A stretch of 64,000 nt of DNA. Source: Tsukamurella conjunctivitidis. GTDB lineage: Bacteria; Actinomycetota; Actinomycetes; Mycobacteriales; Mycobacteriaceae. This document shows, in pieces, positions 45,031-56,974 of the stretch. Below the pieces are notes generated by a model. It had not been told where the DNA came from and did no database searches. It saw only the letters and a program-made list of their open reading frames with translations. The DNA lies in contig NZ_VIGX01000006.1 of assembly GCF_007858475.1 (NCBI RefSeq), positions 62,001 through 126,000 of the forward strand, read 5' to 3'. Within the stretch, counting starts at the first letter, position 1; every line of letters begins with the position of its first letter. The position numbers and the translations under genes are program-made.

Positions 45031-45104
45031 CGCGGGGTGGAGCAGCTCGGTAGCTCGCTGGGCTCATAACCCAGAGGTCGCAGGTTCAAATCCTGTCCCC
45101 GCTA
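45031..45104 (+). tRNA. Initiator tRNA-fMet (CAT anticodon)
   Basis: The 74-nt sequence folds as a tRNA: acceptor CGCGGGG with CCCCGCT, D-arm AGCAGCTCGGTAGCTC, anticodon arm CTGGG-CTCATAA-CCCAG, and T-arm GCAGG-TTCAAAT-CCTGT. It has an unpaired first position (C1 opposite T72) and three consecutive G-C pairs in the anticodon stem (GGG/CCC), the two marks of initiator tRNA. The discriminator is A at 45104. CCA is not encoded (CTA follows). A strong terminator comes after. Confidence 0.95.
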
Positions 45105-45112
45105 CTAGGTCG

Positions 45113-49678: not shown

Positions 49679-49910
49679 CCTCGCCGCGAGAGGGTCGCGG
49701 TTTGATAACGCTTCGGTCACGATCGGCTGTGAGGACCGTAAGGCCAGGTCATCCGCGCGATCGCTAGCAATAGCTCGCATAGGCAATGACCTGCAGGAAG
49801 TGACGGCAATCACAGGCGGAATGTGGCTCGGGTCACCCGAGTGAAGGTTACGGAACGGTGTACGCGATGTCGGCCCGTAGCACCGGACCGGACGACGAAC
49901 GCGGCGGCGA

Positions 49911-49944
49911 CGGCTGCGCTGCCGTCGCCGCCGCCGTTCTGCGG
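49911..49944 (-). terminator. Probable terminator of the mmpL-TGT gene
   Basis: Perfect 14-bp arms GCGGCGGCGACGGC and GCCGTCGCCGCCGC around TGCGCT, 17 bp after the stop on the minus strand. Confidence 0.6.
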
Positions 49945-49960
49945 GGCTCTCGTGGGGCTC

Positions 49961-52900
49961 CTAGACGGGACTCCCCACCGCGTCCTCGTCGCGCGGCTGC
50001 GCGACCACGCGATCGGGGCGCGCGGTGTCCCCTCCGGCCCCCTCCGCGAAGCGCTCCAGCACCGCGTCGCGGTACGCCGGGAAGCGGCCGTCGGCGATCG
50101 CCTGCCGCGCGCCCGCGGTCACGGCGGCCAGGAACCGCAGGTTGTGCCGGGTCACCGCCTGGACGGCCGACGGGGTGTCGGTGCGGTACAGGTGATGGAC
50201 GAAGGCCCGGTTCGGCGACGTCGCCGCACCGTCGCCGTCGAGCGGGCGCACATCGTCCCGGAAGGCCTGCGTCGACAGGGCGAGCGGCCCGTCCGGCGTG
50301 AACGCGATGCCCCGTGCCGCAGCCTCCTGCGGCGCGGCCGACTCGATGAGGTCGATACCCGCGTCGACGGCGTGCAGCAGATCCTCCGGCCCGCGGACAC
50401 CGGCCATGTAGCGCGGGCGGGTCTCATCCAGCGTGGCGACGATCGTCGGCAGCGCCTCCCCGCTCCGCGGATCGGTGGCGTCGCCGAGGATCCGCACGCC
50501 GCCGAACCCGAGACCGCCGGAGCGCACGTCCTCCTCGTGGCGGGCGAGCAACTCGCGCAACGCGGTCCGGTCGTGCGCGAGGCGGATCGGCACGCTGGCC
50601 CACAAGGAGACCTCGCCGCGGCGCAGCGCGGTGAGCCAGTTGTGCTCCGCCAGGGCGCGCCGCGCGCCGTTCGCCGCCGTCGGGGCGAAGACGATGTCGC
50701 CGCCCAGCCGGTACGCGGCGGTCACCGCGGCCGCGGGATCGGACGACGGTGCCGAGACGTCCACAAACAGAGGCAGTCTCCAACCGGCGAAGGCCGCGAG
50801 GCCGCCCGCCTCCTCGATCGTCTCGGTGCCGGGGTGCACGGCCAACCGGGCGCCGTCCACGGAGACGGCGCCCGCGCCGAGCGCGGCCGCGGACGCGGGG
50901 TCGACGCCGGGGATCGCGCTGAGTGGCGCGGATGCCACGAACGCGGGAGTGGCTACCGTGCGGTGCGCCGTGCGCAGCGTTCCCGTACGCGCGCCGCCCG
51001 ACGCCGCGCCGACCTCGAATCGCACCGGATCGGTGACGGATTCGGCCTGCAACCGCGCGTGCGCGGACAGGGATCGGTAGTCGGAGCGCAGTTCGGAGAG
51101 CTCCTCCGCGAGCGCGCGGTTGCTCGCCCGCAGCTCGGCGATCTCCGTCGTGCCGCCGGGGACGCCTCGGGATGCCCGGGCGTCGACGGCGGTCGTGATC
51201 CGGACCGGTGTGCTGGGCGTCCGCGGGGCGGACGGCCGCGCGGGTGGGTGCGGGGCGGCCGGTACCGCGCGGGGCACGGCGGGCACCTGTGCGGGGGTAC
51301 CCGTCTCCGCGATCGCGCCGGCCGTCACCGGCGCGGGGACGTGCGCCACCGGCGCGGTGTCCGCCTCGGCGCCCTCACTCTTCGCGCGCAGACCGTCGCC
51401 CTCGACGTCGATGCGGGGGAGCACCTTGTCGAGCCAGCGCGGGATCCACCACGCGCGCTCGCCGAGCACGGCCATCGCGGTGGGCATGATGATCATCCGG
51501 ACGAGGAAGGCGTCGAAGACGATGGCCGCCGCCATCGAGAAGCCCATCAACTTGAGGAAGGTCATGGAGGAGAGGGTGAAGCCGGCGAAGACGGAGATCA
51601 TGATGATCGCCGCGGCGGTCACCACGCGCGCACCGGACCGGTAGCCGATGCGGATCGCCTCCAGTGCCGGCGCCCCGTGATGGTGCTCCTCACGCATCCG
51701 GCTCACCAGGAAGACCTGATAGTCCATCGCGAGGCCGAAGACGATGCCGATGAGGAAGATCGGCATGAACACGAGGATGGGCCCGCGCTCCTCGGGCGCG
51801 ATCCAGCCGAGCCACCCGTCCTGGAAGAATCCGACGGTGACGCCGAAGGTCGCCGCGATCGAGAGCAGGAAGCCCAGCGCCGCGATCACGGGGATGATCA
51901 CCGAGCGGAAGACGATCATCAGCAACAGGATCGCCAGTCCCACCACCACGACGAGGTAGAGCGGCAGCTTCGAGGTGAGCGTCTCGGAGAAGTCGGCGTT
52001 GATCGCGGCCGCGCCGCCGATGCCGATGTAGGTCGACGTCGCGCCGCCCACGGACTCCGCGCGGTCGCGCAGCTCGTCGAGCAGCGTCGCGGTCTGCTTC
52101 GTCGACGGGCCCGATTCGGGGACGATGACGAACTGCGCGGCATCACCGGTCGCGTTGGGCACGGGGCCGATCACGCCGTCGTGCGCGATCCCGGGCAGCG
52201 TGCGCGCCTCGTCCGCGAAGCGCTGGGTCGCGGCCTTGAGGTCGCCCCGCCCCTGTGTGTCGACGACGGCGACCAGCGGCGACGACTTGCCCGCACCGAA
52301 GGCCTCGCTCTGCATCTGCACGGCCGCCTTGTCCGACGGTGCCGCGAAGTCCAGCCCGAGCTCGATCTTCCCGATCGGGATCGCCGCGACCGCGAGGATC
52401 GCGACGGCGCCCACCAGGAAGGGGAGCGGCTTGCTCGTGAGCAGGTCACCGATGCGCTGCCCCATGGGGCGCCTCTCGGTCTGTTCCGGCGTCCACAGCA
52501 GCGGCAGCCGGGGCTTGAAGACCGTCGACTTGAACAGGCCCAGCAGGGCGGGCAGCACCGTCAGGGCGACGAGAACGGCCAGGGCGACGGTGATCGCGGC
52601 ACCGAGGCCCATCTGGGACAGGAAGGACATGCCCGTGATCGACAGGCCACAGAGCGCGATGATCACGGTGGCGCCCGCGAAGACCACAGCGCTGCCCGCG
52701 GTGCCGACCGCGAGGCCGGCCGCGTGCGCCCGGTCCGTGGTGGTCATCAGCTCCTGCCGGTACCGGGATATCACGAACAGGGAGTAGTCGATGCCCACCG
52801 CGAGCCCGATCATCATCGACAGGCCGGTGGTGGAGGTGCCGAGCGTGAGGAACGAGGTGCCGATCGCGATGATCGACGTCGAGAGCCCGATACCGATCAG

Positions 52901-53542
52901 CGCGGCACCCAGCGGCATCAACGCGGCGAGCAGCGCCGCGAACGTGATGATCATGACGATCACGGCCACCACGATGCCGATCATCTCGGCCGGTGGCTCG
53001 GCCTCGGTCTCGTTCGCGGACCCGGCACTCTCCACGCGCAGGCCCGCATCGGTGCCGGCCTTCTTCGCGGCCGTCACCGCCTCGATCGACTCGTCGGAGA
53101 CCTCCTTGACGTCGCCGAAGGAGAAGTGGATCTGCGCCGTTCGGCCGTCGCTGCTGAGGTTCTCGGCCGCGGCGGCTCCCACGGTGGGGTTGACGATGGC
53201 GCCCTTCTCCGCGGCGGTCAGTTGCGGAACCTCGCGCAGCTTGCTCACCACCGCGTTCACCGCCGCTGCGTTGCCGCCCTGGTCCAGCCGCTGCCCGTCG
53301 GTGGACTGCAGGACGACGGTCGCGGTGGGCGCCTGGGTCTTCGCGGTCTCGGGGAACTTCTCCTGCAGCACGTTCTGCGCCTCGACGGCGCGGCTGCCGG
53401 GGAGGTTGAAGTCGTCCTTGAAGGGCTTCGACAGGGACGAGCCGGCCGCACCGATCGCGAGGAAGGCGACGATCCAGAGCACGAGGACGAGCCACCACTT
53501 CCGGTAGCAGAATCGTCCGAGCTTGTAGAGGAGGGATGCCAT
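49961..53542 (-). CDS. MmpL-family RND transporter fused to a degenerate tRNA-guanine transglycosylase (TGT)-like domain
   Basis: A 1193-residue protein in one uninterrupted frame. Residues ~1-710 are an MMPL transporter: 12 membrane helices, two periplasmic loops, and the proton-relay helices GLAVGIDYSLFVISRYR (~250) and GLAMDYQVFLVSRMREE (~602). A Pro/Ala-rich linker (~720-790) and a coiled coil (IAELRASNRALAEELSELRS, ~798-832) follow. Residues ~836-1166 resemble a queuine/TGT barrel: ARTGTLRTAHRTVATPAF at the start, then RPRYMAGVRGPEDLLHAVDA, GIDLIE, and NRAFVHHLYRT ... ITxxHN-like TRHN. The TGT nucleophile Asp (GIDxFD) is Glu. The zinc site CxCxxC is absent (DGDGAATSPNR), leaving only the His of RHN. 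A base-exchange enzyme is therefore unlikely. The ATG at 53542 begins the typical MASLLYKLGRFCYRKWW. It lies 140 bp downstream of a two-component system. Confidence 0.82.
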   Translation of the reverse strand: MASLLYKLGRFCYRKWWLVLVLWIVAFLAIGAAGSSLSKPFKDDFNLPGSRAVEAQNVLQEKFPETAKTQAPTATVVLQSTDGQRLDQGGNAAAVNAVVSKLREVPQLTAAEKGAIVNPTVGAAAAENLSSDGRTAQIHFSFGDVKEVSDESIEAVTAAKKAGTDAGLRVESAGSANETEAEPPAEMIGIVVAVIVMIITFAALLAALMPLGAALIGIGLSTSIIAIGTSFLTLGTSTTGLSMMIGLAVGIDYSLFVISRYRQELMTTTDRAHAAGLAVGTAGSAVVFAGATVIIALCGLSITGMSFLSQMGLGAAITVALAVLVALTVLPALLGLFKSTVFKPRLPLLWTPEQTERRPMGQRIGDLLTSKPLPFLVGAVAILAVAAIPIGKIELGLDFAAPSDKAAVQMQSEAFGAGKSSPLVAVVDTQGRGDLKAATQRFADEARTLPGIAHDGVIGPVPNATGDAAQFVIVPESGPSTKQTATLLDELRDRAESVGGATSTYIGIGGAAAINADFSETLTSKLPLYLVVVVGLAILLLMIVFRSVIIPVIAALGFLLSIAATFGVTVGFFQDGWLGWIAPEERGPILVFMPIFLIGIVFGLAMDYQVFLVSRMREEHHHGAPALEAIRIGYRSGARVVTAAAIIMISVFAGFTLSSMTFLKLMGFSMAAAIVFDAFLVRMIIMPTAMAVLGERAWWIPRWLDKVLPRIDVEGDGLRAKSEGAEADTAPVAHVPAPVTAGAIAETGTPAQVPAVPRAVPAAPHPPARPSAPRTPSTPVRITTAVDARASRGVPGGTTEIAELRASNRALAEELSELRSDYRSLSAHARLQAESVTDPVRFEVGAASGGARTGTLRTAHRTVATPAFVASAPLSAIPGVDPASAAALGAGAVSVDGARLAVHPGTETIEEAGGLAAFAGWRLPLFVDVSAPSSDPAAAVTAAYRLGGDIVFAPTAANGARRALAEHNWLTALRRGEVSLWASVPIRLAHDRTALRELLARHEEDVRSGGLGFGGVRILGDATDPRSGEALPTIVATLDETRPRYMAGVRGPEDLLHAVDAGIDLIESAAPQEAAARGIAFTPDGPLALSTQAFRDDVRPLDGDGAATSPNRAFVHHLYRTDTPSAVQAVTRHNLRFLAAVTAGARQAIADGRFPAYRDAVLERFAEGAGGDTARPDRVVAQPRDEDAVGSPV

Positions 53543-53651
53543 GCTCCCAGTCTGGCCGCCGGTTACCGTGCACGGTAGGTCTCGAAAGCCCTTGGGGACG
53601 ACCGATGCCCGCTTCCTAGACGATGGTCGCACCGCGCCGCGGAACACCCCC

Positions 53652-53682: not shown

Positions 53683-54339
53683 CTAGCCGTGGGTGAGCCC
53701 GGCGTCGTGCGCGAGAATCGCCAACTGCACGCGGTTCGCGGCGTCGAGCTTGTCCAGCAGGCGCGAGACGTGGGTCTTCACGGTGGCCTCGCTCATGAAG
53801 AGGTCGCGGCCGATCTGCGCGTTCGAGCCGCCCGCGGCGACGCCGAGGAAGACCTCGTGCTCCCGGTCGGTGAGCACGGCGACGCGGGCGAGGGCCTCGC
53901 GGCGGCGATCCTCCCGGGGGTCCGTGGCGAACCGTTCGATGAGCTTGCGCGTCACACTCGGTGACAGCATCGCCTCGCCCGAGGCGACCACCCGGACACC
54001 GTCGAGCAACTGCCGGGGTGGGGTGTCCTTGAGCATGAACCCGGCGGCGCCCGCCTGGAGCGCGCGCATCACGTAGTCGTCGAGGTCGAAGGTGGTGAGC
54101 ACGACGACCTGCGGCGGCTCCGGCTCCGACCGCACGAGCGCGGTCGCCGTGAGCCCGTCGACCGAGGGCATCCGGATGTCCATGAGCACCACGTCGGGCC
54201 GGTGCTCGCGGACCAGTCCCACCGCCTCCGCGCCGTCGCCGCCCTCGCCGACGATCGTCAGGTCCGCGGCGGACTCGATGATCATGCGCAGGCCGGACCG
54301 CACCAACGGGTCGTCGTCGATGATGACGATGCGGGTCAC
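53683..54339 (-). CDS. NarL/LuxR-family response regulator
   Basis: A 218-residue two-component regulator. The receiver domain has the acidic pocket IIDDDP and phospho-acceptor Asp in VVLMDIRMPS (near residue 54), Thr in VVLTTF, and Lys in FMLKDTPP (near 102). The C-terminal LuxR helix-turn-helix is VLTDREHEVFLGVAAGGSNA then IGRDLFMSEATVKTHVSRLL. The GTG at 54339 has AGGAGG at ideal spacing; an in-frame ATG 8 codons earlier is less likely. It follows the histidine kinase by 44 bp and precedes the mmpL-TGT gene, its likely target. Confidence 0.92.
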   Translation of the reverse strand: MTRIVIIDDDPLVRSGLRMIIESAADLTIVGEGGDGAEAVGLVREHRPDVVLMDIRMPSVDGLTATALVRSEPEPPQVVVLTTFDLDDYVMRALQAGAAGFMLKDTPPRQLLDGVRVVASGEAMLSPSVTRKLIERFATDPREDRRREALARVAVLTDREHEVFLGVAAGGSNAQIGRDLFMSEATVKTHVSRLLDKLDAANRVQLAILAHDAGLTHG

Positions 54340-54383
54340 GGAGCCTCCTGGGGTCGTGACCATCCTGCCACGGCGCCGGCGGA

Positions 54384-55547
54384 TCAGGCCCGTTCGGCGG
54401 GGACGGGGAGCTCGGCGAACACCCGCCAGCCGCCCGTACCGGTGGGGCCGGAGGTGATCTCGCCGCCCGCGAGCTGCACGCGCTCGGCCAGGCCGATCAA
54501 GCCGGAGCCGGACCCGGGCAGCGGAGGCGCCGCCGACCGCGGCCGATCGTTGACCACCTCGATCGAGAGGCGGTGCTCGCGCAGCCGCACCGCGACTCGT
54601 ACCGCCGCGGGACCGGCGTGCTTGCGCACGTTGGTCAGGCTCTCCTGGACGATGCGGTACGCCGTGCGGCCCAACGCCTCCGGCACGGCGTGCGGTGCGG
54701 CGGCGCACTCGTCGATCTCGAGATCGACGGTGGTGCCGCCCACCCGGGAGTCCGCCGCCAGGCGCGCGAGGTCCCGCAGGTCCGGCTGCGGTGCGAGCGG
54801 TTCCGCGTCGGACCCGCGCAGCACACCGAGCACGCCGCGCAGGTCCTCCAGGGTCTCGTGCGCGGTGGAGCGGATCTCGGCCGCCGCCCGCTCCACGGCG
54901 TCGGACGCCGCGCCCGCGTTCACCTCGAGCGCCCCCGCCTGCAAGGCGATGAGCGAGACCCGGTGCGCGAGAACGTCGTGCATTTCGCGGGCGATGCGCG
55001 AACGCTCGGCGGTCCGTGCCTGGGTGGCGCGCAGCTCGCGTTCGGCCTCGGCGCGCACCGCGCGCTCGCGCAGTGACTCGATCAGGTCGCGGCGCGCGCC
55101 CACGTACGAGCCCCAGAGCGCGAAGGCGGCGGTGAGCGCGACACTGGTGAGGGTGTCCGCGAGCCGCCACGGGGTGCTCGACCACGGGTGCGGCAGCGCG
55201 AGGCAGGCCGCGGTGACGACGGTCGCGATCACCAGTACGCGGTCGCGCCGCCGCACCGCCAGCGTGAACAGGCCGAGCAGGGCGACGCCCGGGAATCCGA
55301 CGGCGAGCATGAGGATCCCACCGACCACGGTGACCTCGAGCGGCCACCGCCGCCGCCACCACAGGACCAGGGAGCCGCCGAGACCCACGGTGAGCACGAG
55401 GTTGCCGTAGCCGATGGAGCCGCTCTGCCACTCCACCGCCGCGGTGGCGACTGCGAGCAGCGCGGACAACAGCACGCACGCGCAATCCCGCAGGCGCGGT
55501 GCGGTCCACCACCGCTGCCACCGCGGGACCGCCGCGCTCGAATCCAT
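54384..55547 (-). CDS. NarL-type sensor histidine kinase (HisKA_3)
   Basis: A 387-residue membrane kinase. About five hydrophobic helices occupy residues 20-150, with very short external loops, so it probably senses inside the membrane (intramembrane-sensing, LiaS/DesK-like). The dimerisation helix carries the phospho-His in IAREMHDVLAHRVSLIALQA (near residue 187). The ATPase domain shows YRIVQESLTNVRKHA (N-box) and GSGSGLIGLAERVQLAGGEI (G-box). It would phosphorylate the adjacent response regulator. The ATG at 55547 is preceded by the shared palindromic site, suggesting autoregulation. Confidence 0.92.
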   Translation of the reverse strand: MDSSAAVPRWQRWWTAPRLRDCACVLLSALLAVATAAVEWQSGSIGYGNLVLTVGLGGSLVLWWRRRWPLEVTVVGGILMLAVGFPGVALLGLFTLAVRRRDRVLVIATVVTAACLALPHPWSSTPWRLADTLTSVALTAAFALWGSYVGARRDLIESLRERAVRAEAERELRATQARTAERSRIAREMHDVLAHRVSLIALQAGALEVNAGAASDAVERAAAEIRSTAHETLEDLRGVLGVLRGSDAEPLAPQPDLRDLARLAADSRVGGTTVDLEIDECAAAPHAVPEALGRTAYRIVQESLTNVRKHAGPAAVRVAVRLREHRLSIEVVNDRPRSAAPPLPGSGSGLIGLAERVQLAGGEITSGPTGTGGWRVFAELPVPAERA

Positions 55548-55615
55548 GGGTTCACGGTACTGGGGCGCTCCGCCGCGGGGGAGCGGCCGAAGGTCGCGGC
55601 CCCGTCGGGTGCCGC

Positions 55616-55655
55616 TACGACTTTCGTCGGACGGCACCGGCGGAAGTACGACCGT
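55616..55655. promoter_or_regulatory. Palindromic sites upstream of the histidine kinase
   Basis: TACGACTTTCGT (55616-55627) is the complement-form of the mmpL site TACGAAAGTCGTA (one mismatch in the outer arm). AGTACGACCGT (55645-55655) corresponds to the ACGGTCGT that flanks that site. They lie 69-108 bp upstream of the kinase ATG. Confidence 0.55.
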
Positions 55656-55681
55656 GCGGACCGTCGGGCCCGCGCACGCGA

Positions 55682-55723
55682 ACGGGGCGCCGTCGTGGAT
55701 CGCGATCCGCGCCGACGCCCCGT
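55682..55723 (-). terminator. Probable terminator of the fadE24-fadE23 run
   Basis: ACGGGGCG (55682-55689) pairs with CGCCCCGT (55716-55723); a perfect inner palindrome GGATCGCGATCC lies in the loop. It begins 16 bp after the fadE23 stop on the minus strand. Confidence 0.45.
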
Positions 55724-55738
55724 CGTACCTCCCCTGGT

Positions 55739-56974
55739 CTACTTGAGCTGCGAGCTCGTGAGGTCCAGGTGGCGACGCGCGATGATCAGCTGCTGGATCT
55801 GCTGTGTGCCCTCGAAGATGTCGAGGATCTTCGAGTCGCGGGCCCACTTCTCCAGCAGCGTCCGCTCCGAGTAACCGAGCGCGCCGGCGAGCTCCACCGC
55901 CTTGAGGGTCACGTCCGAGCCCACCCGGCCGGCCTTCGCCTTCGCCATCGACGCGTTCATCGAGTTCGGCAGCTTGTTATCGGCCATCCAACCCGACTTC
56001 AGCGTCAGCTGGTAGGCCGCCTCCCAGTCGGACTCGAGGCGGATGAACTCCGCCGCGGCGTGCGGCAGGGTGTTCACGGGCGCGTCGTAGTCGATGACGA
56101 TGCCCGCGTCCTCGAGCACGGTGCGGAGCTCCTCGAGCGAGGCCCGCGCGCAGCCGATGGCCATGGCGGCCACCAGCGGACGGGTGTTGTCGAAGGTCTG
56201 CATGACCCCGGCGAAGCCCTTCTCCACGTTCACCTCGGGGCTGCCGAGGATGTTCTCGAACGGGATCCGGCAGTCCTCGAAGCGGATCTCCGCCGTATCG
56301 GAGGCGCGGATGCCGAGCTTGTGCTCGAGCCGGGCGACGGTGACGCCAGGGTGCTCACGGGGCACCACGAAGGACTTGATCGCGGCACGGCCGGCGCTCT
56401 TGTCCACGGTCGCCCAGACCACGATGTGGTCGGCGCGCGAGCCCGAGGTGACGAAGATCTTGGTGCCGTTGAGGACCCACTCGTCGCCGTCGCGGACGGC
56501 GGTCGCGGTGACGGCCGCCGAGTCCGAGCCGAAGGACGGCTCGGTGATCGCCATCGATGCCCACACCTTGCCGAAGCGCTCGAGCTGCTCGTCGGTGGCG
56601 ACCGCGGCGATCGCGGCGTTGCCCAGGCCCTGGTAGGGGAACGCGAGCATGAGACCGGTATCGCCCCAGCACATCTCGATCGCGTTGATGATCGACTCCA
56701 TGGTGCCGCCGTTGCGGCTGCCGGCGGTGACGTCGACGGGCTTGGGCTTCTCCTCGCCCTCGCCCTTCTTGCGGTCGCCCGAGGCGGCCGACGGCGCCTG
56801 GCCGGCATCGGCCAGGCCGTCGTAGAGCGCGGCGATGGTGTCGAGTTCCTTGGGGTACTCGTGCTCGGCCAGATCGTACTTGCGCGAGATGGGGCGGAAG
56901 ATCTCGGCCGCACCCTGGTGCGACATCTCGGCCGACGCCTTCAGCTTCTTGGGAAGTTCCAGATTGATTGCCAT
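55739..56974 (-). CDS. fadE23: Acyl-CoA dehydrogenase, FadE23-like
   Basis: A 411-residue FAD acyl-CoA dehydrogenase. Flavin/substrate motifs are MAITEPSFGSDSAAV and WVLNGTKIFVTSGSRAD, and the C-terminal EGTQQIQQLIIARR replaces the usual EGTNEIQ. The N-terminus MAINLELPKKLKASAEMSHQ matches the FadE23 pattern I recall. A charged loop near residues 65-85 (GDRKKGEGEEKPK) is an insertion typical of this branch. It probably forms a heteromeric enzyme with the FadE24-like protein encoded 29 bp upstream, as many mycobacterial FadE pairs do. Function in beta-oxidation of an unknown acyl-CoA. Confidence 0.85.
   Translation of the reverse strand: MAINLELPKKLKASAEMSHQGAAEIFRPISRKYDLAEHEYPKELDTIAALYDGLADAGQAPSAASGDRKKGEGEEKPKPVDVTAGSRNGGTMESIINAIEMCWGDTGLMLAFPYQGLGNAAIAAVATDEQLERFGKVWASMAITEPSFGSDSAAVTATAVRDGDEWVLNGTKIFVTSGSRADHIVVWATVDKSAGRAAIKSFVVPREHPGVTVARLEHKLGIRASDTAEIRFEDCRIPFENILGSPEVNVEKGFAGVMQTFDNTRPLVAAMAIGCARASLEELRTVLEDAGIVIDYDAPVNTLPHAAAEFIRLESDWEAAYQLTLKSGWMADNKLPNSMNASMAKAKAGRVGSDVTLKAVELAGALGYSERTLLEKWARDSKILDIFEGTQQIQQLIIARRHLDLTSSQLK

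Follow-up and report, generated by a model that had tools for sequence, protein, structure and literature searches.

Two Tsukamurella proteins that join a transporter to a bacterial tRNA-guanine transglycosylase (Tgt), the MMPL-bTGT fusion Tpau_4044 and the MFS-bTGT fusion Tpau_0550, have been named as queuosine-precursor transporter candidates (Quaiyum et al. 2024, PMC11130926). A gene that shares their genus and architecture lies on a 64,000-nucleotide stretch of the Tsukamurella conjunctivitidis genome (contig NZ_VIGX01000006.1, positions 62,001 to 126,000; hereafter the window). It encodes an MMPL exporter followed by a linker, a coiled coil, and a degenerate Tgt-fold domain, and this tail appears to be a pseudo-Tgt that would not modify tRNA. 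Three types of fusion are distinguished below: type A is an MMPL exporter with a complete Tgt, in type B a degenerate Tgt is joined to a DHA2-family efflux MFS, and type C is the window type. Tpau_4044 and Tpau_0550 are probably types A and B. Genome G003 has a 4.38-Mb contig with B at 0.58 Mb and A at 4.17 Mb, and type C was not found in this genome. The available excerpts of PMC11130926 make no mention of active-site loss, of a coiled coil, or of a second MMPL type. The original prediction, made from the window sequence alone, held that no system of this kind was known to have been described. That does not apply to the MMPL/MFS-Tgt architecture, which is already known from the two proteins in the excerpts of PMC11130926. 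It stands for the cassette in its dead form, for the coil, for the occurrence of the cassette on five or more exporters, and for type C; none of these was found among the open-licence PMC papers searched.

The window protein can be set beside three other known systems. Compared with bacterial Tgt (Z. mobilis; PDB 2z1x, 1p0e), its domain lacks D156, Q203, Asp280, and the Cys triad, and it has a shortened active-site stretch and is fused to an exporter. Eukaryotic QTRT2 is a Tgt-fold relative without catalysis, as the window domain appears to be, and PDB chains of accessory subunit 2 match at E 4e-8. The window domain is nearer to bacterial Tgt (E 4e-35) and, unlike QTRT2, is covalently bound to an exporter. 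The nearest functional analogy would be the pair of catalytic QTRT1 and noncatalytic QTRT2, here anchored to exporters. MmpL3-type exporters belong to the same MMPL family as the exporter of type C, but the latter matches the MmpL3 equivalog model only in part, at 218.6 bits, far below the cut-off of 1400.

The window fusion passes the MMPL family model PF03176 in two stretches (289.5 bits versus a cut-off of 20.5), the Tgt model PF01702 (143.5 versus 26.3), and the Tgt superfamily model TIGR00449 (113.3 versus 47.6). The Tgt part is predicted to form an intact TIM barrel. An MMPL exporter and a Tgt-fold domain in one gene, including the PF01702 match, had been expected from the sequence, as had the coiled coil between them, which is predicted as a helix over residues 2-34 (pLDDT, the predicted local distance difference test score, 89-95) with a heptad-like core. 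The full-length AlphaFold model is of low confidence (predicted template modeling score 0.39) and is taken as a hint only; in it, linker residues 699-798 have a pLDDT below 50. The tail presumably lies on the cytosolic side, where we place it from general MMPL topology.

Residue numbers are those of Z. mobilis Tgt, obtained by counting along alignments, and the roles of the numbered residues outside the dimer hot spot are those generally ascribed to them in Tgt. The TIGR00430 equivalog model (cut-off 306.75) is passed by A (379.8) and failed by B (189.4) and C (118.8). Asp102, Asp156, Gln203, and Asp280 are kept in 15 A rows; the fragment L077 was dropped from these rows and from the Tgt tree, and the fusions L082 and L097 are counted apart from B. 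Asp156 is lost in 15/15 B and 8/8 C copies, and Gln203 in 8/8 C copies. The positions of Asp280, Asp156, and Gln203 hold E, T, and P in the window domain, which bears out the earlier reading that catalytic residues are gone and that Glu has replaced the nucleophile. Across the 40 aligned fused tails, the D156 pocket residue is missing in 24 (8 C, 15 B, and L097). The original prediction also counted the lost zinc-binding Cys triad as a mark of repurposing. The CxCxxC triad is indeed absent from the window domain, which keeps the His349 position, but it is missing as well from the A copies and from 6/19 free-standing relatives with a fetched tgt locus, including L115, the relative that scores closest to A. 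The triad is therefore uninformative on whether a copy is an enzyme or dead. The six free-standing Tgts without it (L108, L109, L110, L113, L115, and L126, from several genera) keep their catalytic residues, and they possibly mark a zinc-free Tgt branch in Mycobacteriales.

Our survey of the genus covered 16 Tsukamurella genomes. The source genome has three Tgt-bearing genes, one of each type, and no free-standing Tgt gene; only A's Tgt is complete. The standard tgt for which a check had been proposed is present as a catalytic-type gene that is itself fused to another MMPL. A's Tgt occurs in 16/16 genomes and forms one long fused frame in 14; G009 has the Tgt frame without MMPL, and the copy in G011 is a fragment at a contig end. 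B-clade cassettes occupy 15 loci in 14/16 genomes. The G009 copy has no MFS in the same frame, and G006 has two cassettes, one on a different MFS. Type C is present in 8/16 genomes, and G010 carries two further MFS-Tgt fusions beyond A, B, and C. The MMPL part of the window protein is 91-96% identical to those of G002, G004, G005, G006, and G008, 83% to that of G014, 67% to a tail-less MMPL of G012, and 47-49% to the MMPL of A. The MFS parts of B, L088, and L097 share 24-30% mutual identity, whereas the MFS of L082 is 75% identical to that of B. Counting the distinct MMPLs and the divergent MFSs, five or more different exporters carry the coil-Tgt cassette. Relatives of the tail were found in T. 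ocularis, T. pseudospumae, and two other Tsukamurella; a further match, in a contig labelled Acidobacteriaceae, is apparently G011:C739, from a genome placed in Tsukamurella. Among 186 non-Tsukamurella genomes of the family, 175 have a Tgt match, one each except for two genomes with two; frame lengths are known among the matches listed, and a transporter-fused Tgt may be among the lowest-ranking of these outside matches. The type C gene is interrupted in T. tyrosinosolvens NCTC13231 (L065:3257-10520, NZ_LR134451) and at G015:C3:3866369-3872252. On NZ_LR134451, helix-turn-helix, monooxygenase, and ISL3-like transposase genes stand between the pieces annotated as MMPL and as tRNA-guanine transglycosylase.

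In the genomes searched, the coil turned up with these tails alone. It is constant at 38 residues in the A, B, and C sets, its core residues I L N I/L L L Y being spaced 3-4 apart, and N9 is invariant in 10/10 aligned examples. A core Asn favors parallel dimers, as in GCN4. A model of the coil gives 41 matches in the 16 genus genomes, which equals the number of Tgt cassettes, and 40/41 lie directly ahead of a Tgt domain; the other, G011:C358, is at a contig end. In the family, the model matches strongly in 15/15 Tsukamurella genomes and in 3/186 others at E 2.1e-4 to 8.0e-4 only. At E 1e-5, it matches 3/298 genomes of the order, all three Tsukamurella. These searches scored the best 35 (family) and best 24 (order) candidates per genome, which makes the absence incomplete. 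An origin of the coil outside the genus was set aside, no strong match having appeared beyond Tsukamurella among the candidates scored.

Constraint differs along the protein. Omega was computed from 6/8 C genes (not G008, G015), 12/14 fused A genes (not G005, G013), and 12/15 B-clade loci (not G009, L088, L093). The median is 0.09 for the MMPL part of C (6 orthologs). For the coil, it is 0.12 in C, 0.08 in B, and 0.09 in A, and for the barrel 0.37, 0.20, and 0.09, respectively; the coil is the most constrained tail piece in C and B. Retention was scored over 172 columns conserved at ≥95% in 34 catalytic-type rows, in regions whose borders were chosen by the analyst. In C, an average of 0.16 of these columns is retained in the active-site stretch, the least of any region, versus 0.68 over the 17 that run from the zinc/dimer helix through to the C-terminal end. 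The corresponding values in B are 0.35 and 0.87. The C-terminal excess over all other columns gives p 0.002 in C and 0.0002 in B. Bacterial Tgt, as described in the available part of PMC5395182, can function only when homodimeric; at the hot spot of the dimer, Phe92 meets Trp326, Tyr330, and His333 of the mate. F92 is kept in 7/8 C copies, an aromatic residue at 330 in 8/8, and His333 in 8/8; in B, an aromatic at 326, Y330, and H333 are kept in 15/15.

These data favor dimerization or docking over substrate sensing, and we tentatively prefer to see the C tail as a cytosolic oligomerization or docking module through which exporters would cluster among themselves or with the live A protein, a reading that we regard as possible rather than established. 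The dead Tgt tail would carry out no tRNA modification and would instead act as a cytosolic docking part, with the coil, whose heptad core and core Asn are shared by A, B, and C, and the Tgt dimer surface together pairing exporters. Partners could be the same exporter or other tailed exporters, including the live MMPL-Tgt protein A. The step from a retained dimer surface and coil to clustered exporters, perhaps with A, is one that we infer from sequence. A stronger form, in which the sole queuosine enzyme of Tsukamurella, the live Tgt on its MMPL, pairs with the dead exporter-tied Tgts through coil and dimer face in a membrane-bound heteromeric system, is unlikely. If true, it would place tRNA modification and lipid or drug export in one physical complex, and which exporters cluster or act could then depend on tRNA binding or on the supply of queuine.

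Several observations weigh against a docking role for the tail. The Tgt part of C evolves fast (mean identity 0.62 beside the omega given above). Only 1/8 C copies has an aromatic at 326, and F92 is lost in 15/15 B copies. The borders of the retention regions were not fixed in advance, sliding blocks equal the observed C-terminal retention in 7/172 positions in C and 2/172 in B, and the excess in C weakens to p 0.016 when deleted columns are omitted. All 15 B copies keep D280, and no B or C copy has lost D102, so the loss of activity is an inference. Half of the genus genomes (8/16) have no C, and the C locus of G012, whose flanks share 88-93% identity with the G005 flanks, holds a divergent tail-less MMPL, which indicates that the tail is dispensable for some exporters of this kind. 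The tail-less MMPL of G012 (L166:6932-9229) stands beside a MerR-type regulator, and no BLASTN match was found at this locus for most of the window's histidine kinase and response regulator stretch.

The dead barrel could also gate the exporter as a ligand sensor, still able to bind tRNA or a small molecule (a deazapurine or a nucleoside drug). The D102 and G230 positions are kept in 8/8 C copies and Glu stands at 280 in 7/8, and a two-component system lies upstream, as expected for a regulated exporter. However, the stretch from D102 to D156 is ~53 residues shorter in the window domain than in A, the arginine at 286 is lost in 8/8 C copies, like Q203 and D156, and that at 289 in 7/8, and the active-site stretch is the very region that is least retained. 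We regard such a sensor as unlikely too. That the tail is a passenger, a decaying remnant of a fusion tolerated by the exporter, is doubtful. Its fast-evolving barrel, the tail-less allele of G012, and the interrupted C copy of G015 would fit decay, but none of the eight C copies has a stop inside the Tgt match, median omega across six C genes is 0.37 in the barrel and 0.12 in the coil, the barrel is still predicted to be intact, and several distinct exporters retain cassettes.

It has been suggested that such fusions link a queuosine-precursor transporter to the enzyme that uses its cargo, the exporter-like part moving preQ1 or queuine, and MMPL and MFS fusions are named as candidates in the excerpts of PMC11130926. 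The equivalog-grade Tgt of A agrees with this, as does the best match to A's MMPL lying ≤4 kb from tgt in 6/8 related genomes. Tsukamurella also appears, from its gene content, to salvage queuosine precursors: QueA is found in 0/16 genomes and no full-length QueC in any. QueC matches of 20.7-22.4 bits occur in 15/16 genomes, 14 of them just above the Pfam cut-off of 22, and were discounted, as they span 53-56 of the 210 positions and lie within frames of 656-1255 aa. Against this idea, a free-standing QPTR, a known precursor importer, is present in 16/16 genomes, much of the pocket is lost in the B and C tails, and B's MFS passes the DHA2 efflux model. A Corynebacterium propinquum MMPL showed no preQ1 transport in E. 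coli, where poor expression is possible (PMC11130926, available excerpts). Precursor transport may hold for A; it fits B and C poorly, and for the fusions as a whole we consider it improbable. The A-type tgt lies near gluQRS in T. tyrosinosolvens, where NZ_LR134445 and NZ_LR134451, labelled plasmids 3 and 9, carry genes of housekeeping type, tgt and gluQRS among them, and are possibly mislabelled chromosome contigs.

Long chance frames do stay open in G+C-rich DNA, and a 1251-aa frame lies opposite the gene, but a chance frame or a frameshift or assembly join of mmpL and a tgt-like gene, which the original prediction had named as its possible undoing, is scarcely credible and in our view already refuted: one-frame copies of the fusion recur in five further genomes, the linker is in frame with coding-type third positions (G+C 0.90 versus 0.92-0.95 in the remaining parts), and no internal start combines conservation with a Shine-Dalgarno-like sequence. 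That the tail is translated on its own was likewise rejected, no such sequence being present in any row of A, B, or C. Within the 12 A genes, an ATG column in the coil segment and a GTG column inside the barrel are each conserved in 11/12, and no start-codon column is conserved to 90% in B or C.

The Tgt tree separates all 40 cassettes from the 19 free-standing Tgts by a fully supported branch; among the cassettes there are some long branches, and the types branch in an uncertain order. With the best genome-wide match to its MMPL close to tgt in six of eight related genomes (not G023, G052), A looks like a fusion of neighboring genes and probably arose from adjacent mmpL and tgt; the coil-Tgt cassette probably then spread to other exporters and decayed. 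Whole-gene duplication of A into C is not favored, since their MMPL parts share 47-49% identity and are not sisters in the tree. A quick tree places the MMPL of A with the tgt-linked MMPL of G025 (Shimodaira-Hasegawa-like approximate likelihood ratio test 90) and that of C only approximately. The MFS-Tgt fusion L082:6959-10309 (G010) has E at D102 and G at Q203 and keeps D156 and D280; judged by these residues, it is a putative halfway stage of active-site decay, with A intact and B and C changed more. In 3/19 fetched outgroup loci, tgt is immediately preceded by an MMPL gene in the same orientation (L122:5904-9690, L119:8347-12096, and L108:5790-9550).

Coordinates of the type C fusion gene, its parts, and the regulatory genes upstream (window positions)
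Feature	Position	Strand	Remarks
Whole fusion gene, type C	49961..53542	-	1193 aa + stop; ATG at 53540-53542
MMPL-family RND exporter part, residues 1-707	51422..53542	-	Pfam MMPL 3.7e-86
Pro/Ala-rich linker, residues 708-799, poorly conserved	51146..51421	-	mean identity 0.49, omega 0.47
38-residue coiled coil, core I2 L5 N9 L12 L16 L19 Y23	51032..51145	-	
Degenerate Tgt-fold domain and short tail, residues 838-1193	49964..51031	-	fold match ~50042-51034
Glu in place of the catalytic nucleophile (Asp280 in Z. mobilis)	50342..50344	-	alignment; E in 7/8 C copies
RAFVHHL, segment of the dimer hot spot that is retained (Phe for Tyr330; His333 unchanged)	50189..50209	-	
NarL-type response regulator, directly upstream (start approximate)	53683..54339	-	Response_reg 3.7e-26, GerE 3.4e-17
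Histidine kinase, upstream, same strand as fusion gene	54384..55847	-	Pfam HisKA_3 1.5e-16

The Response_reg and GerE matches of the NarL-type regulator both fall inside the frame 53683-55521. The open frame opposite the fusion gene (49823-53578, + strand) is probably a shadow frame of G+C-rich coding DNA. The sole tRNA found by ARAGORN in the window is a tRNA-Met gene with a CAT anticodon (45031-45105, + strand).

Annotation of these genes calls for caution, as a type C piece is labelled "tRNA-guanine transglycosylase" and an A copy "tRNA guanosine(34) transglycosylase Tgt". The findings also bear on the published inference that a Tgt fusion marks a precursor transporter, given that the standard importer is present in all 16 genomes and that D156 is missing from 24 of the 40 tails. 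The decay series, from intact A through the partly changed L082 to the more altered B and C, would still have its intermediate visible. By analogy, the cassettes suggest that bacteria have a counterpart of the eukaryotic Tgt pairs in which one subunit is dead. Within one genus, a housekeeping tRNA enzyme has apparently been joined to an exporter and then copied, in decaying form, onto others.

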